A stretch of 64,000 nucleotides of DNA from Diphasiastrum complanatum (taxonomy: Eukaryota > Streptophyta > Lycopodiopsida > Lycopodiales > Lycopodiaceae). The stretch lies in NCBI GenBank assembly GCA_029204225.1, contig MU831885.1, positions 34,473 to 98,472 on the forward strand, read 5' to 3'. The translations under genes and the position numbers were made by a program. The notes beneath the pieces were generated by a model that saw nothing but the letters and a program-made list of their open reading frames with translations, was not told the origin of the DNA and did no database searches. Shown here piece by piece: positions 10,162 to 50,922 of this stretch (positions are counted from its first letter, which is position 1; each line of letters starts with the position of its first letter).

Positions 10162-10822
10162 CTATGAAGATTTGAGCATTGATCTTGATATAACTCCAAG
10201 ATTAGATCTATGCTTGATGAAAGCATTTTTGCTCAAAGGCTTGGTGAGTAGATCGGCAATACAAGAGGACGAGTTGACATGCTCCAAATAGATTTCTCCT
10301 CCAATAAGCTTTTCTCTCACAAAATGGTGTGCCACTTCTATGTGCTTGTCTCTTGCATGAAATATGGGATTATTGGCAAGAGCTTGGGCCGAGATGTTAT
10401 CACACTTGATCATTGGTAGATCATCCTCCTTGATGCACTTTAGTTCCATTAATAACCTCTTGATCCAAAGCACTTCTTTGGTAGTTATAGTGAGTGCTTT
10501 GTACTCGGCCTCACATGAAGAAAGAGATATAGTATCTTGCTTTTTGGAAAGCCAAGATATTAGATTGCCTCCAAGAAAGATAGTGTATGCACTAATAGAC
10601 TTCGATACATCTTGTCACTTGCAAAGTCCGAATCCGAGTAGCCAATAATGGATAGATCTTCACTTTTATAGAGTAGACCATAATCACAAGATGAAGATAC
10701 ATATCTTAGAATCCTCTTGGCCATCTTCCAATGATGGATCTTAGGATCTTGCATAAATTGACTCAATTTGTGCACACAAAAACTAAGATTGGGCCTAGTA
10801 ATGGTAAGCCAAATCAAGGAGC
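10162..10822 (-). pseudogene. Copia RNase H and pol C-terminus, two frameshifts
   Basis: Continuation of the polyprotein after the reverse transcriptase. It reads SLIWLTITRPNLSFCVHKLS, then the YSDSDFASDK block typical of copia RNase H, then LSKKQDTISLSSCEAEYKAL and NPADMLTK-like ADLLTKPL near the end (10473-10162). A one-base loss near 10890 (at the VK/DPNKGDE junction) puts the start out of frame with the RT. A second shift near 10620 separates the 10817-10560 part from the 10473-10162 part. The stop lies directly before the polypurine tract, as in intact copia elements. Confidence 0.85.
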
Positions 10823-11887
10823 CTACAAGACTCCTAAAAAGTGTGATGTCCTCAAAGGATCTTTCATCACCTTTATTAGGATCTTTACAATTTGCTCCAT
10901 TGGAGTATCTATGCTCTTAGAATTTTCCATATGGAATTTTTTCAACATAGAGTGAGCATATCTAGATTGGCATATAAAGACATGATTTTCATAAAAATCA
11001 ATTTCTAGGCCTAGGATGTAATGTATCTCTCCTAGATCTTGCATTTTAAACTCACATCCAAGTGCTAGCTTGGTTTCATCAACTAGCTTGATACAACTTC
11101 CACAAAGAATAATGTCATCAACATAAATTAGAAGAATGACAATATTGCTATCAACAAACTTTAGATACATGGAAGGATCATAGTCACTAAGAGTAAATCC
11201 TAGTGAGATAAGAAAAGAGTTAAGTCTTGAATACCATGATCTTGGTGCTTGCTTGAGTCCATAAAGACTTTTGAAGAGCAAGCACACTTTGGACTCATCC
11301 TTGATGAATCCTTGAGGTTGTTCCATATAGATCTCCTCCTCAAGATAACCATTTAGAAAAGCATTGGATACATCTAATTGGAACACCTTCCACTTGAAAA
11401 AACAAGCAAGAGAAATAAGAATTCTTATTGTCACCATCTTTGCAACGGGTGCAAAGGTCTCCTCATAATCAAGACCATGGATTTGAGCAAATCCTTTGGC
11501 ACATAATCTTGCTTTATGCTTGTTGATGGTGCCATCATGATTGAACTTCATCCGAAATACCCACTTGCAACCAATCACATGCTTGTTGGATGGAGGATCC
11601 ACAAGCTCCCAAGTATTGTTGGTGATCAATGCATCATACTCTTGCTTCATGGCATCATACCACTCCTTGGTATTGAGTGCCTCTTGTACATTCTTTGGCT
11701 CTTCATGAGAGACATAAAAAACATAATTAGTGGAATCAAGATCCACTTGTTTGCCTTTGTCAACATATGAGAGCCTCTTAGGCTCGGATCTATCTCTCAT
11801 GGATCTTCTTGGTGAAAAAATTCAAGGAGAGTCTTCTTCAAATCTCGACCCCATTACATCATGATTGTCTTCAAAATCAATAATTGA
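10823..11887 (-). pseudogene. Copia reverse transcriptase part of Pol
   Basis: The open stretch 11800-10823 is in the same frame as the Gag-integrase ORF upstream, separated by a TAA at 11888-11890 and a TGA near 11822. Numbered from the Met at 11800: KWVFRMKFNHDGTINKHKAR at about 79, FAPVAKM at 116, QLDVSNAFLNG at 141 (first catalytic Asp143), LYGLKQAPRSWY at 179, and the YVDD catalytic motif at 226-229. All catalytic Asp residues are present. The two stops look like CAA to TAA and TGG or CGA to TGA. It would copy element RNA into DNA in cytoplasmic particles if it were made. Confidence 0.9.
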
Positions 11888-14203
11888 TTATGCATCCATA
11901 GATTTCTTGATCTCGGCCTCTTCAAATGATGAGTGTTGATCTTCATGAAAGACAACATCTCTACTTTCAATAACTTGAGAAGTAGTGAGTATAAAGACTC
12001 TATAGGCCTTCTTGGTGGATGAGTATCCAACCATGATCCCTTTGCATGCACTAGGATCTTCCTTCTTCCTTGTTTCCAAGGGAATATGGACAAAGCATAA
12101 GCATCCAAAGACTCTAAGGTGATCAACCTTAGGCTTCTTCAAAAATAAGATTTCATATGGTGACTTTCCTCCAAGAGCTATATGTGGGAGCCTATTGCAA
12201 AGATAATTTGCACAATTAATGGCTTCTCCCCAGAAATCTTTGGGCAAAGATGCCTCAATTCTCATAGATTTTGCACATTCACATAGAGATCTATTCTTTC
12301 TCTCGGCCGCTCCATTTTGAGATGGAGAGTAGGCACAAGAAAACTCTCTTTTAATGCCTTCAAGCTCACAAAAATCTTGAAATTTATTGGAGATATATTC
12401 ACCACCTCCATCACTTCTAAGAGCATTAATCTTGAATGAGAATTGTTTCTCTACATAAGCTTTGAAAATAAGGAAATGATCAAACACCATAGATTTTGAA
12501 GCAAGAAGATATATCCAAGTGAATCTTGTGTAATCATCAATGAAAGTAACAAAACAAGTGGCTCCTCCCTTGCTTGTAGTTGATGATAAATGCACGTCCG
12601 AGTGGATTAACTCCAAAGGATGCTTGCTTTTGATAGAAGATCTTGTAAATGGCTTTTTGTGAGATTTAGCAATAGCACAAGCCTCACAAGGCTTGATCTT
12701 CTTGGAGAATGACTTTGGCAAGCCAATAGCTTTGGATTCTTTGATCATAGAGAGCATGGATTTGTAGTTGGAATGTCCCAACCTCCTATGCCATAATTCC
12801 TCCATAGAGAGCTTGTTCACAAGAGCAACATTACAAGCATTCACATACTCATTTGGATCTAGTTTATAGATGCCACAAAATCTAGATCCTAATGCAAGTA
12901 TCTCATCATTCTTCTTGATAGTGCAAGTATCAACATTGAATTTTACATCAAGGCCATTATCAAGCAATTGGCCAACACTAATAAGATTCTTGGTAAGCTT
13001 AGGTACATAAAGAACTTTAGAGAGAGAAAGAACTTTAGAGAATGCAAGCTTCAAGGGAATGTTCCCTATGCCTTCAATAGGACATTCAAAATCATTTGCA
13101 GTGTATATTGATTTCTTTACTCCATCATAAGGTGCAATAGAAGAGAAAGAGTCCTTGGAGCTACACATATGTGAAGAGGCTCCACTATCAATATACCATA
13201 GGCCGTCCTTCTTGAAAGGAGTAGATGAGAAACTAGAGACCATAAGAGATCCCTCTCCATCACTTGCAATAGTGTCTTCCTTCTCGTTGGTAATATTGGC
13301 TTGCTTGAGTTGATTCTTCTTTTTGAAGAAATTGGTGGCATAATGACCTTTCTTGCCACAATAAAAGCACTTGATCTTCTTCTTCTTCTTGAGCTTGGAT
13401 GATGAAGCATTAGAGGAATCATCTTCCTCCTCATCTTTGTCTTTGGATTTGACTTTTTCCTTGCTTGAGGATTGTTGATGTTGGTTCTTGCTCCTCTCTT
13501 TGTGCTTATCCTTGGCAAAGAGAGCTTTGCCATCATTATGAGTGAGAGAAAGCTTGTCCATCCTCAAGAGCTTGTACTCTTGTCTTGATTCTTTTGAAAT
13601 TAGCACACTTTGGAGAGCCTCCAAACTTGGTAGCTCCTCCTTAATGGCATAGGATTGGACAAGGTTATCAAATTCACTTCTCAAGCCATTGAGAATGACT
13701 TGAACTAGCTCATTTTGATTGATGGAATCACCAATGCAAGCAAGCTCTCTATGAATATCTTTTACTCTCAAAACATAACTAGATGCACTCTCATCACTCT
13801 TTTGGCTACTTTGAAAGATTTGATTCCTAAGAGTGAGAAGCCTAGAGGTATTCTTAGCCTCATAGATAGTCTTGAGACAATCCCAGGCTTCTTTGGCTGT
13901 TGTACAAGTACCTATCTCCCTCAATATCTCATTAGAGACATTCATCTTAATGTAGTGGAGAGCCATCCTAGCTCTCTTTTTGTATTTTTGAGCCTCTTGA
14001 AGAACTTGTGGTTCTTCTTTAAGGCCAAGAACTATGTCCATCACGTCTTGAAGGATCAAGATGGACTCCATCCTCATTTTCCAAATTGAATAATTTGAAG
14101 TGGTCAATCTTTCACTTGGTTCCAACAAGGATGAACCCATTGAAGACATTTGAAGTGAAGAAAACTCAAATGATGAACAGTAAATGCTGTTACACACTTT
14201 CAA
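11888..14203 (-). CDS. Copia Gag-protease-integrase polyprotein (771-codon open part)
   Basis: Longest open frame of the window. The likely start is Met19 (14149), because homologues begin MTSM/MSSM there. Residues, counted from 14203: UBN2-type gag about 30-210; Lys-rich region 230-278; zinc knuckle C279, C282, H287, with Phe292 where the fourth Cys should be; protease WYIDSGASSHM with Asp339; GAG-pre-integrase zinc site H472, H477, C506, C509; integrase catalytic D536, D598, E634. The C-terminus reaches the integrase end before a TAA at 11888. Apart from the missing knuckle Cys all domains look intact, so this part could still yield protein. Confidence 0.92.
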   Translation of the reverse strand: MKVCNSIYCSSFEFSSLQMSSMGSSLLEPSERLTTSNYSIWKMRMESILILQDVMDIVLGLKEEPQVLQEAQKYKKRARMALHYIKMNVSNEILREIGTCTTAKEAWDCLKTIYEAKNTSRLLTLRNQIFQSSQKSDESASSYVLRVKDIHRELACIGDSINQNELVQVILNGLRSEFDNLVQSYAIKEELPSLEALQSVLISKESRQEYKLLRMDKLSLTHNDGKALFAKDKHKERSKNQHQQSSSKEKVKSKDKDEEEDDSSNASSSKLKKKKKIKCFYCGKKGHYATNFFKKKNQLKQANITNEKEDTIASDGEGSLMVSSFSSTPFKKDGLWYIDSGASSHMCSSKDSFSSIAPYDGVKKSIYTANDFECPIEGIGNIPLKLAFSKVLSLSKVLYVPKLTKNLISVGQLLDNGLDVKFNVDTCTIKKNDEILALGSRFCGIYKLDPNEYVNACNVALVNKLSMEELWHRRLGHSNYKSMLSMIKESKAIGLPKSFSKKIKPCEACAIAKSHKKPFTRSSIKSKHPLELIHSDVHLSSTTSKGGATCFVTFIDDYTRFTWIYLLASKSMVFDHFLIFKAYVEKQFSFKINALRSDGGGEYISNKFQDFCELEGIKREFSCAYSPSQNGAAERKNRSLCECAKSMRIEASLPKDFWGEAINCANYLCNRLPHIALGGKSPYEILFLKKPKVDHLRVFGCLCFVHIPLETRKKEDPSACKGIMVGYSSTKKAYRVFILTTSQVIESRDVVFHEDQHSSFEEAEIKKSMDA

Positions 14204-14888
14204 TAGGATCCAATAATTGAGTACTATCTCCTCCTATAAAAGATCTTACAACAATTTGTGAATTGATTCTCACTAGCTACTCAAATCTCTCTAAAACAAG
14301 ATCTATTTCACATCAAATGATGGAGTATAGGAAAAGTTAGGATCTAACACTCTTAGCACGTGTGAAATACACTAAGAAACCAAATTTGACTCAAATACAA
14401 TGATATTGCATGAAACAAAATGGCTAAGATCTCAAAACAGTGCCTAGATCACATATAGATGAGATTGGCAAGCATACAGCTGTGATTTTGGATCAACCAA
14501 GCAATCTCTTGACCAAACCAAATGTGTCCACCCAGGTCTAGGTGCCCTACCTAACCCTCTTCAAAATCTTATAACTTTTGATTGGCTCAACCAAATGGAA
14601 TGAAATTGATTGCAACAGAAACTAGACAAAAATAGCTTCAAAACAAGCTATCAAGCAAGATAAATGGATCAAACATGAGAGAGAACTTCCAAAATGAAAT
14701 TGGATGTTCCTCACACGTGTCTAAGCACCTGATTCTGTACAGTACCAGGTCATACCCAATCAATGTCCTTTTGATCTCTTTTGATCCAAGATTGAACAAG
14801 ATAGCTAGGAAAATGGGCCTTGACAACTTCTAGCTCAAGATTGATGAGATTTTTTTCACTTAGATGGATCAAAATTCATGGTAACCTT

Positions 14889-28505: not shown

Positions 28506-28679
28506 TTCTCTTTGTTGTAATTTTAAACTAGATTTTTTATGTAAACCCGAAATCTTTATCTAACTAGTTAAAAATGTGCTTGCCAGTCTAGAATCATTTC
28601 GTGCTTAGGTCTTCAAATGCTTTTGTTTGCTCTGTTGTTTTTTAATAGGTATAGATGCAATACAAGCACCTTTAAGTGC

Positions 28680-30391
28680 CAATGTCCCAAGTTCTTCATA
28701 CAAAGCAGAACCCAAAGGAAAGAGAAATTTCGAAGGAATCTACAATGAAGTCGGGAAGTGATCTCACGTCAAAAACAGTTTCTAGAACCTCGTGACATCC
28801 GTAGAGTCAAAAAACTTAGTTTGCTGTATTTCCTCTTGTTTGCAAAAAATTGAACTCTATTGAAGTTAAGCAAATTCGCTCGAGTTTTTTTTCAAAAACA
28901 AAAAATGATCAAATTTATTATCTTTGTTCATCTATAAGGCTTGATAGAAAAGATTTCACCTACTTTCTAGAAACAACAGAAGTTTGTTGAAAGACCTTCA
29001 AGGCTGTCCATGCAATTGAAAATTCTAGACTTCGTCGTATTCACACGAGATTAAAAAAGGACTCTAGTCTTCAAGATTTTGTTCAAGGTCGGACTGTTTC
29101 TCCGGATTCCTTAACTGCAAAAACATGGGTGACGCATTTTATAGACATGCATGCTGAGAAACTCCCAAATTTTTTATATTTTCACCTTCCAGAAAATTTC
29201 TCAAAATTAGAAATATTCATGATGTACAAAGATTTTGTAATGTTGAAGAATGTTCAACATGTAAAATACTCTTATTTCGTGAAACTGTGAAGGAGAAATT
29301 TTGGTCTACTAAAAACCCTGAAAAAATCATCATTTTTTTCTAACCACCCAGTTTAAATTTATGACCTAGTTTAAATTCCTTCTACTCTCACTTACTACAT
29401 CATTTTTGTTTGTGATTTTTTAGACAACATCACAAAATCACTTTAAATTCATCGAGAGCAACAAACAATAGAAAGGCAAAAGGCTGCCAAACACAATAAA
29501 AAGTGTTTGGAGTTTTCTCAAAAATATCTAGGCCTCGTAATTGATGGGATGGACCAAAAGAAAATGCTACTGCCACATTTTGTGAGGGTGCCAAAGAATC
29601 TAAACGAAGTGGATTTTATTCAAGTTCATTTGGTTGGAGCTCTTATATTCAACGACACCTTGTAATCTAAAGTGTTTTTCAATTATCTCAATGTTCAAAA
29701 TGATCCAAACTTGACTATTACCATAATCCACAAAATAATAGTTGAATTTGGCAATAGTCTTCTAGAGATTCTTTACTTGCAACTTGATAATATTGCTAGA
29801 GAGAACAAAAATCAAACAGTGTTGGCATATTTGTCCATGTTGGTTGCTTTAAAATTTTTCAAAAAAAATAAAAATAGGATTTTCATTAGTGGGTCATGCT
29901 CACGATCAAATCGACCAAATGTTTAGCTGCTTTTCCAAAAAGCTGAGATGCAAAAAAGCTTTTTCTTTGTCGGTACTACAGAGTATTATCGAGGAGTCCT
30001 ACACCCATAGACCAAATGTGGTTTTACTACGACGCACATTTGATTTTAGAGACTACATCAAAACGTCGGAGGAATATTGCACTATACCAATAAATGATAT
30101 TAGTTTTCAACATCAGTTCAAAATTGAAAATGATATTGGTGGCATTACGTTGTTGTGGGAAAAGAAATTTTCAAACACTATGGAATGGTTACCATCTGAA
30201 CGAGTTCATTTCTTACAAAGCGTGCCCTCTTCTCAAGTGAAGCTTGCACCTTTGTGTCATCTAATTTCTACCACGGAAGAGCAAAAGGCTCAAAGAGAAC
30301 ATCGTCCAGTTGATCCATTGCGGCTTTAAACTTTTTGGAAATGACCATTCAAGTAGCATACCAATGTTTTGATGAGTTTGATAGACATGTG
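28680..30391 (+). pseudogene. Third copy of the putative DDE (DUF7869-like) transposase, decayed and truncated
   Basis: It parallels the gene at 40998-44184. Pieces in order: SRQKQFLEPRDIRRVKKLSL, VKQIRSSFFSKTKNDQIYYL, KTFKAVHAIENS, VQGRTVSPDSLTAKTW, EKLPNFLYFHLPENFSKLEI, an intron-like gap ending TTTTTTAG near 29424, then YLGLVIDGMDQKKMLLPHF, VDFIQVHLVGALIFNDTL, ILYLQLDNIARENKNQT, GHAHDQIDQMFSCFSKKLR and WLPSERVHFLQSVPSS. The putative acidic residues (DGMDQ, QLDN, HDQID) remain. Frameshifts and stops occur throughout. At 30391 it is cut by the copia LTR TGTGAAGGATTTC, so the C-terminal PFWIAKV-type domain is missing. Confidence 0.7.
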
Positions 30392-30392
30392 A

Positions 30393-31017
30393 AGGATTTC
30401 AGATCATTTGATATCCAATCCATGTCCCTGATCTTTGGTTACAACAAGGAGCAAACCAACAATCCTGCCAATGTAGAAAAATCAGCATCTACATACAAAA
30501 TGAGATGCAAACTCTAAGAGGACTGATCAAACATGAACCAAAACATAAAATATAGTTTTTTTTTGTACAATTACAATACCCTACTATATTTCACATGTTT
30601 GGAACAAAAAATAGCAAAATATGAGCATTCTACACACAAGATTGCAAGATGTCATCAAGAGAGTGCACCAATAAGTAGTAGAACCCAAAGAGAAGCATGT
30701 ATAATGATGAAATGAGAGAGAGAAGAGAGAAGATGTCTCTCTCCATGAGTTTCCTCCTTTTATAATAGGTCCAAAACCTATTTGACCTGTTGGCTTTCCC
30801 TCCAAAATGCTAACCCTACTATTTTTGGGTCTAGATTCAAGGTACCCAACATTCAAATTTGAATCTCTCTCAAACTCGACTACCAAATTTCCCACACTTT
30901 CAAAAAGTGTTTATTGAATGTATTTAAAATGTTTATCTCTAAGTCTAAAATAAGTTTTGGCCTCATATTGACAATTTACCAAAATATGACTAAACTAGAC
31001 TAAACTAGTTGAAATCT
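30393..31017 (-). repeat. Copia (second family) 3' LTR
   Basis: About 625 bp. It contains a short impure GA stretch (GAGAGAGAGAAGAGAGAAG, 30714-30732) at the place where the related LTR at 56903-57526 has a 123-bp pure GA tract. CTCCCTCTTCAACTAG next to its right end is the polypurine tract in reverse. Confidence 0.8.
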
Positions 31018-38030: not shown

Positions 38031-38146
38031 ATTACATTATCTTCAACAAAGTGATTTCTAGCTTCTTGAGTGACGATCGTTCTTCTAAAATTTGTCCCTT
38101 TGGACAGTTTTTTGTAATGACCAAATTTATCGCAGTAGAAGCATAT
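38031..38146 (-). pseudogene. Zinc-knuckle fragment of a retroelement gag
   Basis: The minus strand reads CFYCDKFGHYKKLSKGTNF, a CX2CX4HX4C knuckle whose last Cys is Ser, and is then open to about 38010. It ends exactly where the inverted transposase copy begins (38147). No other gag sequence is visible. Confidence 0.4.
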
Positions 38147-40085
38147 TTAACACAATGACATTTGTTTTGGGACTTTGACCTAAAAAAGAGTAATATTTTT
38201 TGGTGTTTTTTAATGGTCCTAGTTTTAGAACAAAATCATGGATTTTTTTAATAAATCTCTAAATTTTATCTCAAAAAAAAACCAATAAATGCATATATTA
38301 AATAAAGAACTACAAGTTTTTTGTTGTAAATTTCATAAAACCATCATAATTACAAATGAAATAATAATCCAAGAGAAAAATGATTTTTGAAACTCGAAAT
38401 CCCATTGAAATACAAAAAGACTTAGATTATATTCGCATATTCTCTTTTTTAAAGTACTTTTTTTAAGGAATTTTCACTGATGCCTCTCAATTTAAAACTT
38501 GTCATATTCTCAACACTCATTTTTAGTTTATGAAGTGGAAGACTCATCTTCTTCATCAGAGTTATCTTCCTCAGAATTTGCATCTAATGTTGACAAAAAG
38601 CTTTGTAAATCAGCTTTTCTCTGTTGATGACGAGTGGAGGATGATGGTTTTTCCATTAATCCAAGTCGTTCTTTCAATATAGATTTAGTTAACTTTTTTA
38701 GATGATTGGTTATTGTTAATTCAAAATTAAACACCAAAACATCTACATCCTTTAAAATCAAATTGTCGACTCTTGGTTGATTTTTTGGCAATCTCTTTCT
38801 CTTGCCCTTTGGATCTACTTGCAACATTTCGAGTTCGTACCTTTCCAAAAAAGCAAAGTGCAAGAAGGCTTCCAATTTGAATTTCATTCAAATCACCGCG
38901 CCATTTCATTTTCGCAACTTTTACACTTTGCCTATTCTTTCTTGAGCCCACATAAATTTCACGTTCCTCACTTTGCAAAAGCTACAAGAAATCATTGTCT
39001 TGAGAAAGATATGAAGGTTCGACAATTGTAGTTGAAGTTTTTTATTTATGAAGCCAATAAAATCTTCAGTTGTTGATGTGTGTTCGAGATTGAGCAAACT
39101 GATTTTTGTTTCTCAAAAAAGTCCATCCACCAGTGCTGATCAAACTCATCAAAAAAATGATAAGTTGCTTGAATACTTGATTCCAAAAAATTTCATAAGG
39201 CAAATGGATCAATCTCACGATGTTCTCTTTGCGCCTTTTGTTCATAGAGGATTTAAAGTCCTTATTGAAACTAATAAAACATCTGGTGGTGGAATTGACT
39301 TCCAAGTAAGTGGCTTCTCTAGCATGGACTTCAAGGGAGACAACACAAGCAGCTTGATTTGAGTCGATGGAATGTTGAGCAAAAATCGAATTCCTTCAAG
39401 AGGTAGCCATGAAACTAAATTTGAAAATAGTTTGCCCAATTATAATATAATGTTTGATTCGTTACATTTGATTTTAAACTGGTGCTGAAAGCTAATATCA
39501 TTAATATTAGCTATGCATCGCTCTGCGCCTTAATATGATCACGAAAATCATGTGTGTCTGATTAATGACACGTTTGGCTTTGGCACATACGATTTCTCGA
39601 CAATGCTTTGAAGCACTGGTAAAGAAAATGTCTTCTTGCATCTTAATCTCTTAAAAAAGCAACTAACATTTGATCAATTTGATTGTAGGTATGTCCTACC
39701 AGCAAAAATCTTATTTTAACTTTTTTGAAATTTTTTTCTCTACTAACATGGACAAGTATGCCAAAACAGTTTGATTTTTATTTTCCTTAGCAATGTTGTC
39801 AAGCTGCAAATAAAGTATTTCCGAAAGGTTTTTACCAAATTCGCAAATAATCTTATGGTGATTGTCAAATTTGGATCATTGGGATAATTAAAAAAGACTT
39901 TGGATTCCAAAGTGCCATTAAACACAAGTGCTCCAACGAGATGAACCTGAATAAAATCTACCTCATTGAAGGGCTTTTGCAGCATCCAGTGAAAATATAA
40001 TGAACTTATTTAATAGAATAAAGATACCGTAATGATATTCAGATAAATTGCAACTTAAGTTTTTTCAAAACAAAAAGTATTAAAA
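38147..40085 (-). pseudogene. Inverted partial copy of the DDE (DUF7869-like) transposase gene
   Basis: It matches 42275-44489 in reverse orientation, from the intron end and second exon to beyond the stop codon. Pieces in order: VDFIQVHLVGALVFNGTLES (39985-39743), the RCKKAFSL-like region near 39620, WLPLEGIRFLLNIPSTQIKL (39439-39242), EEREIYVGSRKNRQSVK and MKWRGDLNEIQIGSL (38978 on), YELEMLQVDPKGKRKRLPKN (38887 on) and a Ser/Asp-rich acidic tail (stop near 38528). A deletion of about 160 bp removes the DGMDQ segment, so it lacks the first putative catalytic Asp. The first exon is absent. The copy ends at 38147 just past the gene, as does the homology on the other arm. Confidence 0.75.
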
Positions 40086-40997
40086 TCGTTACTCACGCGC
40101 TCTTGTCCAACCTCTGCTGAGCATAGGATGTCTTCGCTATTTGCTTGCTAACTTATGCTAAGCATAGGTTGGAAGAGGACCATAGATGCAACCTATGCTC
40201 AACATAGGTCGAACCGTGGTAAGAATAAAGAAATAACTTCGGAATTCTATGCTAAGCATAGGATATTACTAAGGACCCGAGCACAACCTATGCTCAACAT
40301 AGGTTAAAAGAGAGGACTGGTGCAGGCACCTATGCTGAGCATAGGTTACCCATGTTGCAAGAAGATGAATACAAATTAAAATATGAATATTTTCTAATGC
40401 AATAATTTATTACCCATGCTAAGCATAGAGCAAAGCTAGAAAATGACAATAATCTTATCGTCAAGAAATCTGGAAGTGAGAACGTATGAGAAATCTTATA
40501 AAAAGCCGTGACTTGGTCGAAGCGATTGCTCTGGCAGGATGTGGGCTTCTGAATTCGCAAATGAGGTGAGTTATGCTTGGACTATGGTTCTTAAATAATT
40601 TTTTTTTCGAGACCTCCGTCTCACGCCAATCCTCTAGCTTACTTCGGGACCAAGTTGTCGCGACTCACCTCACCCCATGTCGACCTCGAGTATTAGCTCG
40701 GACAGTCCAAACCTAACCGTAACCCTAACCCTAACCCTAATAATGCTGCCAAACAGTATTTAAGACATGGTAGCCGCCAGAAATTTTTATTAACCAGTTA
40801 CTTTTTAGGCTTGTTGCTCATTTGCATTTAGTTGGTTTTTCTGTGTACGTCTATTGAGGTTCGCATAGGTTTTTATTTGTTCTATGATGAGCATAGGTTG
40901 CAGTTATGTTTGAGGAGCACATTTAGTGTGGTGTTAACTATTTGAACGGTTCTATGCTTAGCATAAGTACGTAGTTAAAATTTTTTTTGAGGTTACG
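40086..40997. promoter_or_regulatory. Upstream region with nine palindromes CCTATGCTNAGCATAGG
   Basis: Sites at about 40112, 40152, 40191, 40246, 40286, 40328, 40413, 40881 and 40951, each 16-19 bp. Perfect arms are CTATGCT/AGCATAG around one variable base. Two sites (40191, 40286) read GCTCAACATAGG. They lie between the inverted copy and the start of the plus-strand transposase gene. The spacing is irregular (29-117 bp, then a gap of about 450 bp). Such palindromes fit a dimeric DNA-binding protein, possibly the element's own. A GC-richer patch lies at 40600-40715. Confidence 0.8.
40716..40741. repeat. Short telomere-like stretch (CCCTAA)3
   Basis: AACCGTAACCCTAACCCTAA continues to a third CCCTAA unit. 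It is a six-base unit, not the usual plant CCCTAAA, and too short for a telomere. It lies in the upstream region of the transposase gene, where similar telo-box sequences can be promoter elements. Confidence 0.6.
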
Positions 40998-43900
40998 ATG
41001 TCAAGTAGTTCTACCTTTTTTATTCCAGTAGTTGTAACTCAATATATTACAACAAGTGCAACATCTTCATCTGACATTGCCAATGAAAGCTTTTTTTTAT
41101 TAAAGCCACTCTTGAATTTGAACATATTTTGGTAAACGATGTGGCATCGTCATCATTTACCCGTTCATCATCTGAAATTCCTCAAACAAGTACTTTTCAA
41201 GAAATGACGTCTGTAACTCAGCTTGTATCAAACCTTTCGACCTCGTCCTCCTCTTCAGATACAGGCTCGGCACAACTAGAACATTGTTCTTTTGAACAAG
41301 TTGAATCATTGAGTGATGAGTCAAAAGCTTCAATTCACTCAGTTACTGATTCTAGTAAATCAACAAATCCACACAAGTATGTTGATCCGCGACGTTCAAG
41401 CTTTTCTCATGTTTGTAGGAGACCTTCTCAAAGTGATGTTCGTCATGTTAAATCTAAAAAGGCTATATTCGTTGAAAATTTAGAGCCTTCTAAGGGTCCA
41501 GAACATCCTAGGGTTGGAGCCAGAATTCCTTGTCATGAAATTCCAACACCTTCTCAACCAGTTCAAGCACCTACTAGTGTCACAGGTTCAATTTATAGAT
41601 CAGACCCCAAACAAAAAGAAAAATACAAGAGAGACTTGAGATCCTCACCTAATTTAACGAATCGTCAAAAACAATTGATTACAAAATCTGAGATTCGAAA
41701 GGTACGAAATATTATTTGTTGTTCATCCTGTTGTTTGCAAAAACTGAGTATCAGAGAAATTGAAGAATTAAGATCAAATTTCTTTTTACGAAGTAAGGAT
41801 GAGAGAAATTACTATTTGTGTGCAACAATGAGGCCGAACAAAAATTCATTTTCGTATTTTTTAAATGTTTTGGAGGTTTGTCGCAAAGCTTACAAAGCAT
41901 TTCACGCAATCGGAAACTCATGGTTTCAACGAATGCATGCACAACTTCAGAAAGACTCAACATTACGGGGATCCTTACAGGGTCGAACTATTTCTCCAGA
42001 TGTTTTAAATGCAACTGCTTGGCTAAAGCATTTCATAGATGTGCACGAAAAAAAATTGCCTAGTTTCTTATAGTTTCACTTGCCAGATAATTTTACAAAA
42101 TTAAAAATATTTTTGATGTACAAAGAGTTTTCAAAAACAAAAAATGTTTCCTATTTGAGTTACTCATATTTAAAGATCATGAATGACAATATGCTCCACT
42201 TGCGAGTTGTTAAAGTCTGCAAAACAACTTACAAAGACCAATGGCAAAATTGTAAATATAAATCAAATTTGCCATTCATTTTAATACTTTCTGTTTTGAA
42301 AAAATTTATGTTGCAGTCTTTTTGAACACCATTATGTTGCAGTCTTTTTGAACACCATTATGGTATGATCTTTATTTTATTAAATAAGTGAATCATTGTA
42401 TTTTCAGTGGATGTTACAAAAGCTCTTCAACTGCACAGAGATCAACAAACAGTTGAAAGACAAAAGTTGGCCAAGCATCGAAAGAAATGTTTGGAATGTC
42501 CACAAAAATATCTGGGACTTGTTATTGATGGCATGGATCAGAAGAAAACAATGTTGTCTCATTTTGTCAGAGTGCGCCAAAATCTGAACGAGACAGATTT
42601 TATTCAGGTTCATCTCGTTGGAGCACTTGTGTTTAATGGCACTTTGGAGTCCAAGGTCTTTTTTAATTATCCCAATGTTCAAAATGATCCAAATTTGACG
42701 ATCACTATTGTACATAAGATAATTTGTGAATTTGGTAAAAATCTTCCAAAAATACTTTATTTGCAGCTTGACAACACTGCTAGGAAAAATAAAAATCAAA
42801 CTGTTTTGGCATACTTGTCTATGCTAGTGGAGAAATTATTTTCAAAAAAGTAAAAATAGGATTTTTGTTGCTAGAACATACCCACGATCAAATTGATCAA
42901 ATGTTTAGTTGTTTTTCTAAGAGGTTGAGATGCAAGAAAGCATTTTCATTACCAGTGCTTCAAAGCATTGTTGAGGAATCGTATGTGCCAAAGCCAAACG
43001 TGTCATTAATCAAACACACATATGATTTTCATGATTATGTTAAGGCGTCCAATGAAACAGAGTGATGCATAGCTAATATTAATGACATTAGCTTTCAGCA
43101 CCAGTTTAAAATCAAATGTAACGAATCATACATTATATTATTATGGGGCAAACTATTTTCAAATTCAGTTTCGTGGCTACCTCTTGAAGGAGTTCAATTT
43201 TTGCTTAACATTCCATCGACTCAAATCAAGCTTGTTGTGTTGTCTCCCTTGAAGTCCTTGCTAGAAGAACATCAAAGAGAACATCGTGAGATTGATCCAT
43301 TTGCCTCATTAAATTTTTTGAAATCAAGTATGTAAGCAGCTTATCATTTTTTTGATGAGTTTGATCAGCATTGGTGGATGGACTTTTTCGAGGAACAAAA
43401 AATCAGTTTGCTCAATCTCGAACATACATCAACAACTGATGAATTTCATTGGCCTCATAAATCAAGAACATCAACTACGACTGTTGAACCTTCAAATCAT
43501 CCTCGAGATAATGATTTCCTGCAGCTTGTGCAAGGTGAGGAACGTGAAATTTATGTGGGCTCAAGGAAGAATAGGCAAAGTGTAAAAGCTGCAAAAATGA
43601 AATGGCGCGGTGATTTGAATGAAATCCAAATTGGAAGCCTTGTTGCACTTCTAGCTTCAGAAAACAATGAAGGACATCCATTTTGGATTGCCAAAGTACT
43701 TGGTTTGATTCAAAATAGCAATCAAACAAAAGTACTACATGTCCATTGGTTGCGCACCACTTCAACGAATGCTTTTTCGGGAAGGTACGAACTCAAAACG
43801 TTGCAAGTAGATCCAAAGGGCAAGAGAAAGAGATTGCCAAAAAATCACCCAAGAGTCGACGATTTGAATCTACAGGATGTAGATGTTTTGGCATTTAATT

Positions 43901-44184
43901 TTGAATTAACAATGACCAATCATCTACGAAAGTCAACAATATCTATATTGAAAGAACGACTTGGATTACTTGAAAAACCATCATCCTCCACTCGTCATCA
44001 ACAAAGAAAAGCTGATTTACAAGGTTTTTTGTCAACATTAGACGCGGATTCTGAGGAAGACATGCCAATTGACTCTGATGAAGAAGACGGTTTTTCACTT
44101 CATCAGCTGAAAATGAGTGTTGAGAATATGTCAAGTTTTGAATTGAGAGGCATCAGTGAAAATTCCTTAGAAAATGTACTTTAA
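40998..44184 (+). pseudogene. Putative DDE-type transposase (DUF7869-like), two exons, nearly complete
   Basis: Exon 1 is about 40998-42200 and exon 2 is 42408-44184 (acceptor TTTTCAG at 42407); about 990 codons. Start MSSSSTFFIPVVVTQ. Then a Ser-rich region, a basic segment (YKRDLRSSPNLTNRQKQL), a Cys cluster (CCSSCCLQ), CRKAYKAFHAIGNS, and a GRTISPDVLNATAW block. Exon 2 has YLGLVIDGMDQKKTMLSHF, VHLVGALVFNGTLESKVFF, ILYLQLDNTARKNKNQT and EHTHDQIDQMFSCFSKRLR. These give an Asp...Asp...His/Asp set like a DDE/RNase H-fold nuclease. The C-terminus has PFWIAKVLG and VHWLR, resembling a chromatin-reader-like beta domain, and an acidic tail. Lesions: a T8 run (41091-41098) and an A6 run (about 42846) shift the frame; stops at 42071, 43063 and 43333. 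The family name is from memory of DUF7869-type proteins. Confidence 0.65.
42201..42407 (+). other. Intron of the transposase gene
   Basis: Ends ATTGTATTTTCAG, a good plant acceptor, kept in the inverted copy (ATTATATTTTCA) and replaced by GATTTTTTAG in the third copy. I could not fix the donor. It contains a 27-bp-scale direct repeat (ATGTTGCAGTCTTTTTGAAC, twice, 42310-42360). Confidence 0.5.
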
Positions 44185-44489
44185 AAAAAGAATGTGCAAA
44201 TATAATTTAAGTTATTTTGTATTTCAATGGGATTTTGAGTTTCAAAAATCATTTGTTCTCTTCAATTATTATTTCATTTGTAATTATGATGGTTTAATGA
44301 AGTTTGCAACAAAAAACTTGTAGGTCTTTATTTAAAAAATGTATTTTTTGGCTTTTTTTAAAAACAAAATTTAGAGATTTATTTAAAAAAATCCATGATT
44401 TTGGCCTTAAACTAGGACCATTAAAAAAACACCAAAAAAGATTACTCTTTTTCAGGTCAAAGTCCCAAAACAAATGTCATCGTGTTTTT
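42275..44489. repeat. Right arm of a 2-kb inverted repeat
   Basis: Pairs with 38147-40085 in reverse orientation. The spacer is about 2.2 kb. Outside the arms no similarity continues: 38147 leads into a gag knuckle and 44489 into the second gene's leader. Confidence 0.75.
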
Positions 44490-44959
44490 ATGATTGATAA
44501 AAACTGTTTGTCTATTTAAAGTTTTTAGTATTTTTAATAAGGTAATGTTTGAAATTTTCCTGAAGAATCTTTCTCTCTGCAGATTTTCAATTGTCTATGC
44601 TAATCTTCGAAATGTCGAGGATTTCTTTCAAAATCTCAAGTAAACTTCAAGGTATTCCTTTGAAGAATAAGAAGAAATTCATGTACTACTTCACCAGAGA
44701 GGTCAACAACACAAAGCTCTCTGAGCTTTTTATTCATTTAGTTGAGAAGTCTGACAAGGGGGACTCACAGTTTCATATTCAAGGAAAATTGCTTGCTGAT
44801 CAACCAGATGAGAATGAGAAAGGTGGTTTTGTGAACGTGCTTGTAAAGGAGACGAAAATGTCTCGTCCTATTTTCATTCTGAACGAGACTATGATAAATA
44901 TTCGACTCTGCCAGGATGATGCCATCAAAACTTATTTTGATAAAGCTCTGGTTATTTTG

Positions 44960-45158
44960 GTATGTAATCAAAAAATCTATTTTCACTCATATACGTTAAC
45001 AAGTGTTCTATGCTTAGCATAGTGGTTACCTAAATATAAAATTTCCATGAACTAATAAGTAGAAAATTTTTATGTAAATTGAGTAGTCCTATGCTGAGCA
45101 TAGCCAATATAAATTCCTTTGCTCATTATACTTTAACCTTGTTTTTATTTATGTTCAG
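44960..45158 (+). other. Intron of the second gene carrying two palindromes
   Basis: GTATGT...TTATGTTCAG, 199 bp, phase 0 (VIL|SIKQWL). It holds palindromes at 45007 (TTCTATGCTTAGCATAG) and 45088 (CCTATGCTGAGCATAG). Confidence 0.65.
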
Positions 45159-46805
45159 AGCATAAAACAATGGCTCAAAATGGTGCTAGTTGCTATTGCT
45201 GAGGGAAAAGATTCAATCTACTCATTACAGAGTTCTAAATCTATATCTATTGGACCTCGCAAGCTTGCTTCTACCACTACTCAGGTCACAAAGCCAGCCA
45301 CTAAAAACGTTGAGGCCAATGTAGCTGCCTCTCACCCAAAAAAAAAAGATCACACAATATTTCTGAATTTTTGCCCACCAAACCCAAGTCCCGCCCAAAG
45401 ACCACGACTACACATCGTCACAAGTCCATTCCTTCAGCTGAAAACAAAAAAAATGTAACAAAACCCTCGATGTCTTTATCTGGTGCTTCCATCCACCCCC
45501 TACAAGATAGTTTTGAAATAGCAAAATTAAGAGAAAATATTCATAAAGCAAAAAAGAAAGAAAGAGAAATAACATTAATTTTGGATATAGACCAATGTGA
45601 TAGGCCACCTGTAGACCCAATACAGGAAATAGGCTAATGGAAGTAAGAGAACCAAATGAAACACATGTACATAATTTAAAAATAAAATTTAAAGATCATG
45701 CATAGGCCATAGGTACCTCGTTTGTTGTTTTGGTTGATCTCTTAGAATGAAACGACGTTGCAAATTTTGATTTTTCTGTATTAAATTCATATCATTTTTT
45801 TGTTCTTGGGGGCATACAATTTACAAGCCTAAAAATAGTTCTCTCAAGAGTATTCTCATATTCCTTTCTTTCGAACCATTAGTACAATTGCATTTGTTGG
45901 CCTGACAATGGAGGAAGCAAAATTGTTGGCTTGGAACCATAGTATTGAGCAGGACTACCGGATGAAGATGTCCGTCACAAAAAGAATCCGGTTATTTCGC
46001 AAGGAGTATACAAGAGTCTCCAAAGTTGGAGATGTAAATCAACTAGAGCTGAAAGCACTTTGTGCTCAAGAGACAGCCCTCCCTTTTGATTCAAAAACTC
46101 CTACGCAGAGCCTTACAAAATACAATTATTATTTTTAACTTGCTTTCCTTAATGGCCAAGTAATTTTTCTTGCTATGCTCATCATGGAATGCTTTAGTCA
46201 TAATATATGTTACTATCTTTTTAAATTGTTTTTATTAAACTAAAATTTTGAGCTTAATTTTAATATTTCTTAAATTGCTTATCAAATGATTAAACCTTTT
46301 TTTTTATTTTAGGTGTGGGCCCTTGTTGATAAATTTTTTGACAAATGAAAAAATTTCCAAATAAAAGACGAACCTGCTCAGGGTGCCTCAAAGTCAAAAA
46401 AGAAAGTTGTCATCACTCAAACTTTGAAGCCAATCCCTACATAAATGAAAATATCATAGTGGAAGAACATGCAAGGGATTAGCTCTTCAAGGCTAATAAT
46501 AAGTGTTCTTTCTAGAGTTGTTGGTGGTCAACTCTCTGGCAAAAATGGAGAAAGAATTTCAGAGGTAATATTCATAATTAAAATATCTGTTTTCATGTTA
46601 CTTTTTGTAATAAAATGATTTTCATGATTTTGATGGATTTTTAACAATGACACTTTTTTAAATGCAGCATAAATTATTTATGAAAGTTCAAAAAGCCCTT
46701 GTAACAGGGTTAAATTGTCAAGATTTCAAAGAGTGCCAGAGGCTTTATCCTCTAAGCAGCCAAAATGAATCCTTAACTCCATTTTTTATTTTGTTTAGAG
46801 ACATG

Positions 46806-46983
46806 GTATTTATATCACCCATGCTTAGCATAGGTGTTTATCAATTGTTTCTTTTTTATACTTTATCTCCTATGCTAAGCATAATTTTTTCTTTTATTAA
46901 TTGTTCCTTATTGATACTTTATGTCTCCTAGTCTAATTTATATTTTATGTCTCCTATGCTAAGCATAGCTTCTTCTTTTTCAG
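46806..46983 (+). other. Intron of the second gene carrying three palindromes
   Basis: GTATTT...TTCTTTTTCAG, 178 bp, phase 0. Palindromes at 46818, 46868 and 46952. An 11-base word TTTATGTCTCC is repeated just before the last one. Confidence 0.6.
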
Positions 46984-47690
46984 TCCCCCGAAGATAAGAA
47001 AAACATAGTCCTTCTAGAGCAATTCAAGAGACATATTTCGAAGGCGAAAGCACAAAAAAAGGACAGGGAGAGATTAGCACAGGGTGAGACCATTGCGGAG
47101 GAGGATGCATTAGAGACCTACCTCCCCAAAAGTGTCGATAATCAAACATGCTTTTACTCGGTTGAGGAGGGCGATTGTAGAAAAATTTCATTTTTTTTTT
47201 AAAAAAGGCCCTATACACTTTGCATTGCCGATATACCATATGGATTTCAGATGAAGGAATCATTAATAATGATGATTCTCCTTTTAAATTCACTGAAATC
47301 CATAGTTTCATGCAAGATTTTCTCGAAGTCACAACGTCTCCTATTTGGAGAGTTGCTAGTTTTCATTCCTCTTGGCAATCCGCTTCAGTGCAGAAAGCTC
47401 TATTAACTTTCTATAATGCAGGAATATAAAATGCTGTGTGGTAAGTCTTTAAGTTCATGAATTATATATTCATAGTTTTATTTTAAATTTTTTATTTTGA
47501 AATAAATTTTTTTATTTATTCTACTTGTAATGTTCTATGTCAGGTACAAGCCCAATGTCAAGAACTCGGGAGGAGCACAACTTTGCAATGAAATATAATA
47601 CATAACCATTGGTTATTATTCTTTGGACGACAAACTCTCAATGCTTCACGTTTCGGAAACTTATTCCAGTATTGAGCCGTGACCAAAAAA

Positions 47691-49064
47691 CTGAAGAATC
47701 CAATGATGGGTTCTTTGGCTTGTCCCTACCAAAAGCCACAACAATTAATTAATCATTTAATTGATATTTTTTCTCACCCAAAATCTTTCTAATTAATTGA
47801 ATGTTTTTAAATTTATTTTTTAAGGATTTAAAATTAAGAATTTCAAATATTCTAAAAATTTTAACATTAATAATCATTAGCAAAACTAAAATTGTAACGA
47901 ATTGTCAAGTTTTCAATATTCTAATTTTTGATGTGTTTTCATAATAATTTTTTGGAAACAATATTGTTAGATATTTAGAGAAATCAAAAGATTTTTTTTT
48001 AGGGTGATTTAAATATTTTCACAAATCATGTAATCTCGATTATTGTAAACTAATTTCATTTGTATTTATTTAATGTTTAGATATTCAATGAACTTACAAA
48101 ATATAAGTAAAGATTTTAAAAATATTAAAAAGCTAATAAAATTTGATTAAAATTTTTGTCATAATTTAAAAAATCATTTGTTTTGATACAAGAATTGTAA
48201 TTTTAAAAACTTTTATAATTCCAAAAAAAAAACTAAAACTTTTGTTTTAAATAAACAAAAAAGAAATGTTTAGTTAATCTAGTGGTTGTATACTAATGAT
48301 TTTATTTTGAATAGTATTATTATTTCATATAAGCTAATTTGGAGTTATTAATCTAAGTCTATTAACAAAATTTTGGTAGCTTGATTGATTTTCTTGCAAA
48401 ATACAACATTTTTTTAACATTGTAATATATTTATTTGAATCATTTTAAATATGGATTTTTCTCAAAAAAACTTTAAAAAATTGAAAAAAATGAGTCTCCA
48501 TGTCATTTCTCTTTTTTTTTTGTCATCATGTTATTTACCTTTCTTCTCAAAACCTACCGAAGAATCATCATTATGTTGGTTAACTTGCTTTGGCCATGAA
48601 GTTCATGCACATATTTTCAAATTCATTTGAAGTGTGAAGGTGACAAGGTTATTTTGCACTCAAGTTTAAATTCAAGCTATTTCACAACATTTAACAACCT
48701 ACGGTGGTACATTTTCTTTAAATTACTATTAATCAACTACTCTATGGGAAAATCATTGGAAACCAAAAAGCAATAAAATTTGCTTCAAGACTTGGTTAAA
48801 AAAGGATTTGCACATGATACCCTTGATAAAAAATGAACCCGAATGTACAAGATAGAGTCTAGTGCATATACTAACAATGTGTCCTAAAAGGTCTCAATGT
48901 CCTTATGCACAACAATTTAGTAATAGATATATGTTATTTATCCATTTAAAAGGTAAAATCATGCTTAGGATATTTTAGTAATTCTTGGTATAGTAAAGAA
49001 TGCATATGAGAAATTGTGATGTTAGATACCAAAGATCCCACGCCAACTAATAAAGGTTGATAGA
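47691..49064. other. Very AT-rich spacer, no gene seen
   Basis: Long A/T runs, with no ORF of coding character on either strand. No end of the upstream element (TIR, target duplication) could be recognised here. Confidence 0.5.
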
Positions 49065-49300
49065 GTCCCATAAGCAAATGGATCACTGAGAATTGTAATC
49101 ATTAAATCATTAAGAGATGTCAGAGACTGTGTGAGTCTCTTTATGGTACCCGTTTCTGAACGATCCACACATTTGGAGGGTGGCTAGGAAGCCGTAAGAC
49201 TCAAAACGTTAATAGCGTCCCGTGAGCAAATGGATCGTAGAATTGTACATATGAAGAGGGGTTAAAGAATGTGTGAGTCTCTTTATGGTACCCTTTTTGA
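49065..49300. repeat. Imperfect direct repeat, about 160 bp period
   Basis: GCAAATGGATC...GTGTGAGTCTCTTTATGGTACC occurs at about 49073-49150 and again at 49224-49285. Sequence just right, to 49500, contains two CGTGGGTATGG/TGTGGGTATGG blocks. No gene. Confidence 0.55.
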
Positions 49301-49560
49301 AGGGGACCTAGGGTGGGATCTCAACCTTCAGCCCAAATGCCAAAACTTCTGACAGAAATCTCGCCCAAGATTTATTTGGGGGATTGGACACGGAAATGAT
49401 CAGCATGTATTCACGTGGGTATGGTGAAACTACTCAAAGGTTTTCCTATTTTTGATACGTTGATGTGGGTATGGATGAGATTATTCAAAGAGTAAATTCT
49501 CCTTTTTTGTGAAAATTTAGCATGACGAGCAATCAAATGACAAGTCGAGTAAATAAGAAA
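49301..49560. other. No gene seen
   Basis: Intergenic sequence between the direct repeats and the 3' end of the phytocyanin gene. Confidence 0.35.
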
Positions 49561-49972: not shown

Positions 49973-50922
49973 TCAATAGAATAACGAAAATCCACCCAAA
50001 AAGATTGCTGACAATAGAACCACGGTTCCAGAATACAAAGTTGATGGAGCACTGCTTGGCATAGAAGTCGGTGGCGCTTGTGGAGATGTTGGGGAGGATG
50101 GAGTCTCAGAACCAGGTGGCGGTGTTGAGGGTGGAGATGATGGGCTGGTTTCAGATGAAGGTGACGGGATGGTTTCAGACGGTGACGGTGAGGGGATGGT
50201 TTCAGAAGGTGAAGGTGCCGGCCGATTCGTTTTAGAAGGGGAAGGTGCAATGGGCGATGGTGAAGGTGATGGCACTGGCTTGGGGGGAGATGGCAAAGGT
50301 GAGACCTTAGGCGCAGGTGAAACAGTAGGAGCTGGAGACGGGGTGCTTCCTCCTGACACAGCGACCGTTACAGCCATGCCGCTAGAACAGTGGTTTGGAG
50401 TACCGCAGATAAAATATTGGGTAGTTGCATCAGTAAGCGTAATAGAGTCACTGCCAGTTTGATAACTCTTGATAAAATTGGATATAGTGCATGTCTTGTA
50501 GTTTGCTTGACTTACTTGAAACACACTGTGGGCCTCAGCGCTGTATTTGAACACTGCACACACAGACGGATTGTTCTAAGGCCCATCTATTAACGCATCT
50601 TTAAATTGAAAATGAGCGCAATCAAAGCAAGTTCAATTGTTAGCTATGCCAGGAAGCAATGATATGCTCAGCTCTCTCAGAAGACGAACATTGGTTAGAA
50701 TGTAAGATCAACATTGTGCGACGGAATATTGAGTGTCTTACGTAGCGTGTCGCCCACTTTAAAAGTAATCGGTGCAGCCCAGGTTTTGTAATCTACGTTG
50801 AGGTTCCATCCTGCAGTACCGCCCACGGTGTAGGTAGCTGCCATGGCGCAATGGACAATCGCTAACAGCACCACTGAGATGGCTGCATAACTTGCACCGC
50901 CACTTCCCTGTCTGTCTGCCAT
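49973..50922 (-). CDS. Phytocyanin, uclacyanin type, probably GPI-anchored chimeric arabinogalactan protein
   Basis: Two exons: 50922-50742 and 50553-49973, intron 188 bp with GTAAGA...TGTGCAG, in phase, giving 253 residues. Signal peptide about 1-28 (hydrophobic SVVLLAIVHCAMA). Plastocyanin-like copper domain about 29-127: YTVGGTAGWN and FKVGDTL are family landmarks. Copper ligands His69, Cys110, His115, and Met120 as axial ligand, which marks a uclacyanin rather than a stellacyanin (Gln). Cys82 and Cys116 would form the conserved disulfide. A Pro/Ser-rich region (about 130-228) follows, with many SP and PSP motifs for arabinogalactan attachment, then a hydrophobic tail (VVLLSAIFLGGFSLFY) as a GPI signal. 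The intron position after GDTL is typical. Such proteins sit at the plasma membrane/cell wall; electron-transfer partners are unknown. All features are intact. Confidence 0.93.

Follow-up and report, generated by a model that had tools for sequence, protein, structure and literature searches.

Nested copies of a candidate plant transposon family that pairs a DUF7869 transposase with a predicted amino DNA methyltransferase

Few DNA transposons are known to encode their own DNA-modifying enzyme. Among eukaryotic DNA transposons, the KDZ elements of fungi do so through TET/JBP genes. Mariner elements in giant-virus genomes carry methyltransferases, and Sola2 transposons, which have inverted repeats of 12-13 or 21 bp, 4-bp AT-rich (AWWT) target duplications, and a transposase of ~888 amino acids, can carry a second protein, Fanzor1 (PMC3627910, available text). 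The same text cites adenine methylation as a regulator of IS10. Outside transposons, a bacterial-type PF01555 amino methyltransferase has been described in a eukaryote as N4CMT of bdelloid rotifers (PMC8885841, available text). Here, we describe a 64-kb window of the clubmoss Diphasiastrum complanatum (C367:34473-98472; "the window" is the whole stretch of DNA analyzed) that, as read from its sequence, is composed around the genes of interest of two broken, nested copies of one abundant transposon family and not of a single two-gene element. Comparison of copies reveals two divergent genes, a DUF7869 transposase (gene 1) and an amino methyltransferase-like gene (gene 2), together with their coupling, terminal repeats, target duplications, an intervening palindrome array, and conservation across two plant lineages. 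With a probability of roughly 0.6, we favor the explanation that this is a cut-and-paste family of seed-free plants in which methylation or binding at the array regulates the element.

The outer copy, element B, spans 38149-48532 and has a 4-bp ATTT duplication on either side (38145-38148 and 48533-48536). Its terminal inverted repeats read AACACAATGACA on the plus strand at the transposase side (38149-38160) and AACATGATGACA on the minus strand at the methyltransferase side (48521-48532). B keeps only the 3' part of a decayed DUF7869 transposase gene (38149-40086, minus strand; 88-91% identical in DNA to its counterpart in element A) and a plus-strand methyltransferase half (44487-48532). Nested within B is element A, a plus-strand fragment (40086-44486) that comprises part of the palindrome array, the transposase gene, and a transposase-side end (AACACGATGACA on the minus strand, 44475-44486), and lacks the methyltransferase side. 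The array of A holds seven copies of the palindrome CTATGCTNAGCATAG at 0-1 mismatch, spaced 40-84 bp apart (40112-40428), and two more palindromes lie 5' of the transposase gene (40882-40966). That gene consists of a first-exon open frame (41087-42073, plus strand) and a second exon that encodes the DUF7869 domain (42392-44184, plus strand). The methyltransferase gene of B, likewise on the plus strand, begins with N-terminal and middle exons (44564-46805; exon bounds inferred) that contain stops and frame changes. An exon with motif IV (ADIPYG; 46984-47440), broken by one stop and one frame change, and an exon with YKPN..NEI and the motif X-like KPQQLINHLIDIF (47544-47789) follow. Introns of this gene contain two palindromes (45008-45103) and a further three (46819-46968), the latter at the same place in several other copies.

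Excising A in silico joins the minus-strand transposase half (38149-40086) to the plus-strand gene-2 half (44487-48532), which yields a head-to-head element with matching ends and a flanking duplication. This restored layout implies that the two genes of the preliminary description, which had assigned them to one element at 40086-47690, belong to A (gene 1) and B (gene 2). The span proposed there cuts across both copies, and the outer element actually runs from 38149 to 48532; the idea of one two-gene element holds for the family, whose genes are coupled elsewhere in the genome, and not for the window, where they come from two nested copies. Because the second end of A is missing, the order of the parts can only suggest that A inserted into B and afterwards lost its other half. 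Window positions 39391-49388 have a 99.6% duplicate (L009, G000:C11) within a large contig, which raises the possibility that the 98-kb contig of the window represents an alternative haplotype.

Comparison of copies placed the methyltransferase-side end at 48532 and the transposase-side ends at 38149 and 44486, and the terminal inverted repeats of the family read AACAYGATGAC. Exact 4-bp duplications flank five of seven two-ended copies (B and L016, ATTT; C17, AGTT; C20, TTTA; C578, TAAA), with one-mismatch duplications at the remaining two (C19, ATCA/ATTA; E10, GCAC/ACAC). For two 4-mers drawn at random from the window, the probability of a match is 0.0058, from which agreement in at least five of seven copies has a probability of 1.4e-10, assuming independence. 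Inverted ends and target duplications, the latter named in the preliminary description as a feature to look for, were recovered, and their presence in several copies is characteristic of cut-and-paste DNA transposons. Most of the copies tried are incomplete: 16 of 20, taken in two batches of 10, lacked one or both ends (both ends present in 0/10, then 4/10), and left-end searches recovered one two-ended copy from three tried. For two flanks, an empty site was not found among the fetched DNA. When the flanks of B are joined, the insertion-adjacent sequence resembles a Copia gag zinc knuckle with a broken frame.

The two genes are coupled throughout the genome, which was searched as 1.74 Gb in 5,176 contigs. 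A transposase search returned 3,054 candidates, of which the best 150 were scored; 20 stretches of 10 kb were fetched from these, and 19 loci were counted after setting aside L009 (L017 and L018, like L021 and L022, appear to be duplicates of each other). Gene 2 lies upstream of the transposase on the opposite strand, i.e., head to head, in 15/19 fetched loci, and the palindrome array lies between the two genes wherever it is kept. No gene-2 coding match was found in the 10-kb stretches of the other four (L011, L019, L025, and L028). Extension of six of these 15 loci showed parts of both genes in head-to-head order each time, with the whole C-terminal query part of gene 2 present in four. An element complete from end to end was seen in E10 (8,931 bp). 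A second search with the motif I region of gene 2 gave 2,745 candidates, of which 150 were scored. Between the two lists of 150 scored hits, 23 pairs lie within 8 kb of each other against a chance expectation of 0.2, and 21 of these are head to head. In the other two, on C14 and C746, both genes lie on one strand; at C14, methyltransferase-like sequence directly adjoins a transposase-side end, so the window is not the only case of self-nesting. Loci with both genes therefore exist elsewhere, and their absence, a finding that would have refuted the preliminary description, was not observed. We also considered gene 2 as a host gene and rejected this, given that gene-2 copies adjoin transposases.

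Gene 1 (41000-44184, plus strand) matches the Pfam family DUF7869 (PF25273) with E = 8.2e-21 and 74.9 bits against a cut-off of 26, in agreement with the earlier assignment, and the blocks DGMDQ, QLDN, and HTHDQIDQMF cited for it are present within 42392-43062. The gene had also been called near-complete with a start at 40998. Both points need correction: in-frame stops occur at 43063 and 43333 in the second exon, and the long first-exon frame is not in frame with the ATG at 40998. Structure prediction gave an RNase H-like fold with a conserved acidic triad, as expected of a DDE/RNase H-like transposase. No gene-1 relatives emerged from 15 pattern matches in viral contigs. DUF7869 proteins occur in liverworts, Chara, ferns, bivalves, and corals, and this unnamed family would gain a likely function, that of a transposase.

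Gene 2 had been proposed as methyltransferase-like from the blocks ADIPYG, FHSSWQ..KALLTFYNA, and, across an intron, WYKPN, all of which are present within 46984-47600. The window copy is broken and lacks motif I. Its reading alone had no relevant match in Pfam, NCBIfam, or PDB, and a search of 5.8 billion proteins produced 1,052 candidates, none with E ≤ 1. About 440-465 bp kept by other copies is absent from the window at 47780/47781; this region contains the S-adenosylmethionine-binding motif (motif I) and reads KPQQLINHLIDIFSHPADWVLDLFSGSGTTSAC or decayed forms of it, with an exact DLFSGSGTT in L016 and E10. Only copies retaining the ~450 bp gave a methyltransferase match (PF01555, E = 9e-13). 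Spliced readings of E24 and E17 scored 49.1 and 47.7 bits against PF01555 (cut-off 26.7) and also matched phrog_67, plus CcrM and RsrI in PDB. The motif order read in copies, ADIPYG..KPQQLINHLIDIF..DLFSGSGTT, corresponds to IV, X, and I, that of the class-beta PF01555 enzymes. By homology, gene 2 is a member of the class-beta N6/N4 amino DNA methyltransferase family with a predicted activity, and it is the other copies that bear out the earlier assignment. Six related proteins were found, including Ginkgo Gb_37443 (670 amino acids) and Ceratopteris KP509_15G027200. Gb_37443 aligned with the lycophyte copies over 363 columns (hhalign probability 100), and a motif I of the type DLFSG[ST]GTT is kept in 5/5 relatives.

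The G-G-S-H..EA..L pattern at the N-terminus of gene 2 had raised by eye the suspicion of a ParB-like domain; profile searches gave DUF6551 only, below the cut-off, nothing relevant in PDB, and no match in PHROGs. Among 54 pattern matches in viral contigs, none was a gene-2 relative. Separately, a D. complanatum protein annotated as an ion channel, P0006 (O6H91_Y145100), ends in the element's WYKPN exon (80% identity over 7% of the query), representing either exonization or an annotation error.

A second lineage came from a scan of prokaryote genomes with gene 2: of the seven loci obtained, six lie in a single Trichormus-labelled metagenome-assembled genome (MAG; run ERR2144891). The MAG genes match in exon-like pieces with intron-like gaps between them, their G+C content is 0.37-0.40, and the cyanobacterium lives in Azolla; on these grounds, the contigs (L059-L064, L086, and L087) are probably fern host DNA. 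A cyanobacterial MAG that apparently holds plant-host contigs matters for searches of prokaryote genome collections. Eight of its contigs carry DUF7869, with open frames of 529-924 amino acids and no stops within the match, and fern open reading frames scored 178.2 and 173.9 bits against the family. Gene 2 occurs on six contigs, each with ADIPYG, plus a 23-residue edge match on C447. Both genes are carried by C142, C204, C433, and C447, head to head in 4/4. Upstream of gene 2, four of six fern contigs contain an array of the palindrome GTCGATGCNNNGCATCGAC, which has the core ATGCNNNGCAT in common with the lycophyte CTATGCTNAGCATAG and is spaced at 41, 41, and 41 bp (L062) or 41, 40, and 40 bp (L060). 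Two fern copies are two-ended, with ~34-bp repeats starting AACAC, and L087 has an AACA duplication on both sides. The pairing of the two genes in clubmoss and fern-like DNA points to an element that may be able to place chemical marks on DNA.

Within the window, the palindrome is restricted to the element, as the preliminary description had noted: all 15 matches to CTATGCTNAGCATAG at ≤2 mismatches fall within 38149-48532. Allowing ≤3 mismatches gives 21 matches, compared with a mean of 2.4 in 100 shuffles. Lycophyte arrays are spaced at 40-42 bp, and the gene-2 intron also holds palindromes in several copies. Helical phasing at 10.5 bp had p-values of 0.004-0.022 in four related copies, and none of 12 tests at 10.0, 10.25, or 11.0 bp fell below 0.05; the phasing is only suggestive, as these copies share ancestry.

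The explanation we favor envisages an element of ~8-9 kb with two divergent genes. Sequence features lead us to infer that gene 1 drives transposition, that gene 2 is an active enzyme, and that the palindromes are bound and methylated. Gene 1, of the DDE type, would act on 5'-AACAY ends and insert with a 4-bp duplication. The array, with its core ATGCNNNGCAT, would double as a two-way promoter region bound by the methyltransferase (or the transposase). By analogy with the adenine methylation of IS10, adenine (or cytosine) methylation at the array could act as a switch on promoter activity, on how readily the DNA transposes, or on both, and the resulting mark would be self-made and non-CG. A more ambitious version is possible but doubtful: that a land-plant family of thousands of candidate copies encodes its own writer of N6-methyladenine (6mA) or N4-methylcytosine (4mC), which would act on ATGCNNNGCAT palindromes about four helical turns apart in the two-way promoter, and that the mark, outside host 5-methylcytosine, would gate expression and transposition and have been kept since before the lycophyte-fern split.

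Several observations weigh against the explanation. The catalytic motif IV departs from the form [DNS]PP[YWF], being DIPY in the lycophyte copies and in 6/6 fern contigs and DIPH(G) in the Ginkgo relative. Most lycophyte copies carry stops, and the ratio of nonsynonymous to synonymous divergence (dN/dS) of the two catalytic exons is <1 in only 21/28 and 19/28 pairs, which are non-independent. Structure prediction, successful for gene 1, was uninformative for gene 2, with an AlphaFold2 model of the Ginkgo methyltransferase at a predicted local distance difference test score of 36 and a predicted template modeling score of 0.28 that was not used. A Foldseek search with the transposase model returned 374 matches at E ≤ 10, none at E ≤ 0.001, with Argonautes on top. 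Among the fern contigs, two of six have no palindrome array upstream of gene 2, and one of the two two-ended copies (L086) has no duplication.

The departures at motif IV would also be explained if gene 2 were a catalytically dead methyltransferase derivative that serves as a DNA-binding accessory and reads the palindromes. TNPA of En/Spm binds subterminal motifs, and a dense palindrome array suits a binding protein. Retention of ADIPYG in 6/6 fern contigs and of motif I in 5/5 relatives is, however, more than a pure binder needs, and we consider this alternative credible though unlikely. Less probable still is passenger status, in which the transposon captured gene 2 and multiplied it along with itself without making use of it. 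Gene capture by plant transposons is common, and the methyltransferase exons are more diverged between copies than the transposase (median dS of 0.12-0.15 versus 0.07), perhaps owing to recombination between copies. Against this, a lycophyte-type genome and fern-like contigs share the divergent arrangement of the two genes, and gene 2 has a dN/dS like that of the transposase. In gene 2, the median pairwise dN/dS is 0.33 for the first exon (<1 in 28/28 pairs) and 0.63 and 0.625 for the two catalytic exons, compared with 0.66 for the transposase (<1 in 45/45 pairs); by these non-independent pairs, the two genes look similarly constrained. The same-strand order of the preliminary description, in which the genes at 40998-47690 form one element as they stand in the window and its 99.6% duplicate L009, is highly improbable in view of transposase-side ends at both 38149 and 44475-44486 with the opposite end at 48532, a 4-bp duplication on either side of 38149-48532, and the head-to-head order of 15/15 other two-gene loci.

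Other features of the window include a third DUF7869 copy besides gene 1 and the remnant in B. This copy (28660-30433, plus strand) is diverged (~71% DNA identity) and decayed, with no methyltransferase match or palindromes beside it. A short, telomere-like CCCTAA-type tract lies at 40715-40745, between the array and transposase gene of A. Copia-type retrotransposon frames occupy 10162-14233, and a minus-strand open frame at 49973-50575 is phytocyanin-like by eye.

Whether 6mA or 4mC is functional in plants is disputed. With a fixed transposase-methyltransferase pair and a candidate target, the search for these marks can be directed at defined sites, CTATGCTNAGCATAG in lycophyte DNA and GTCGATGCNNNGCATCGAC in fern DNA. 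Through this family, another lineage also joins the few transposons that encode DNA-modifying enzymes of their own. We did not find this element described in literature on DUF7869 or on transposon-encoded methyltransferases, which is a weak test of novelty in print.

Among known systems, KDZ transposons have another transposase and carry an oxygenase instead of a methyltransferase. CcrM and RsrI share with gene 2 the class-beta assignment, the match spanning motifs X and I and, for CcrM, also the KPN region; they differ in having DPPY as motif IV and in being cellular or restriction-modification enzymes that are not mobile in this way. Rotifer N4CMT is not a transposon's own gene but an allelic host-gene pair with a chromodomain and an SPPY motif that marks transposons (PMC8885841, available text). 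Sola2, as described in the available text of PMC3627910, resembles this family, by its described features, in its short ends, 4-bp duplications, transposase of ~888 amino acids, and carriage of a second protein. Of the exact duplications, ATTT (2/5) fits the AWWT of Sola2, whereas AGTT, TTTA, and TAAA do not, and the fern AACA was seen in one of two copies; the second protein of Sola2 is Fanzor1, whereas here it is an amino methyltransferase. The giant-virus Mariner elements are likewise DDE transposons that encode a methyltransferase. They differ in their Methyltransf_26 or C5-cytosine domains, Mariner transposase, TA duplications, and endonuclease, and the available text of PMC3627910 mentions no palindrome array for them. 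DDE transposons with methyltransferases are thus already known, and the pairing with an amino methyltransferase is a variant of these.

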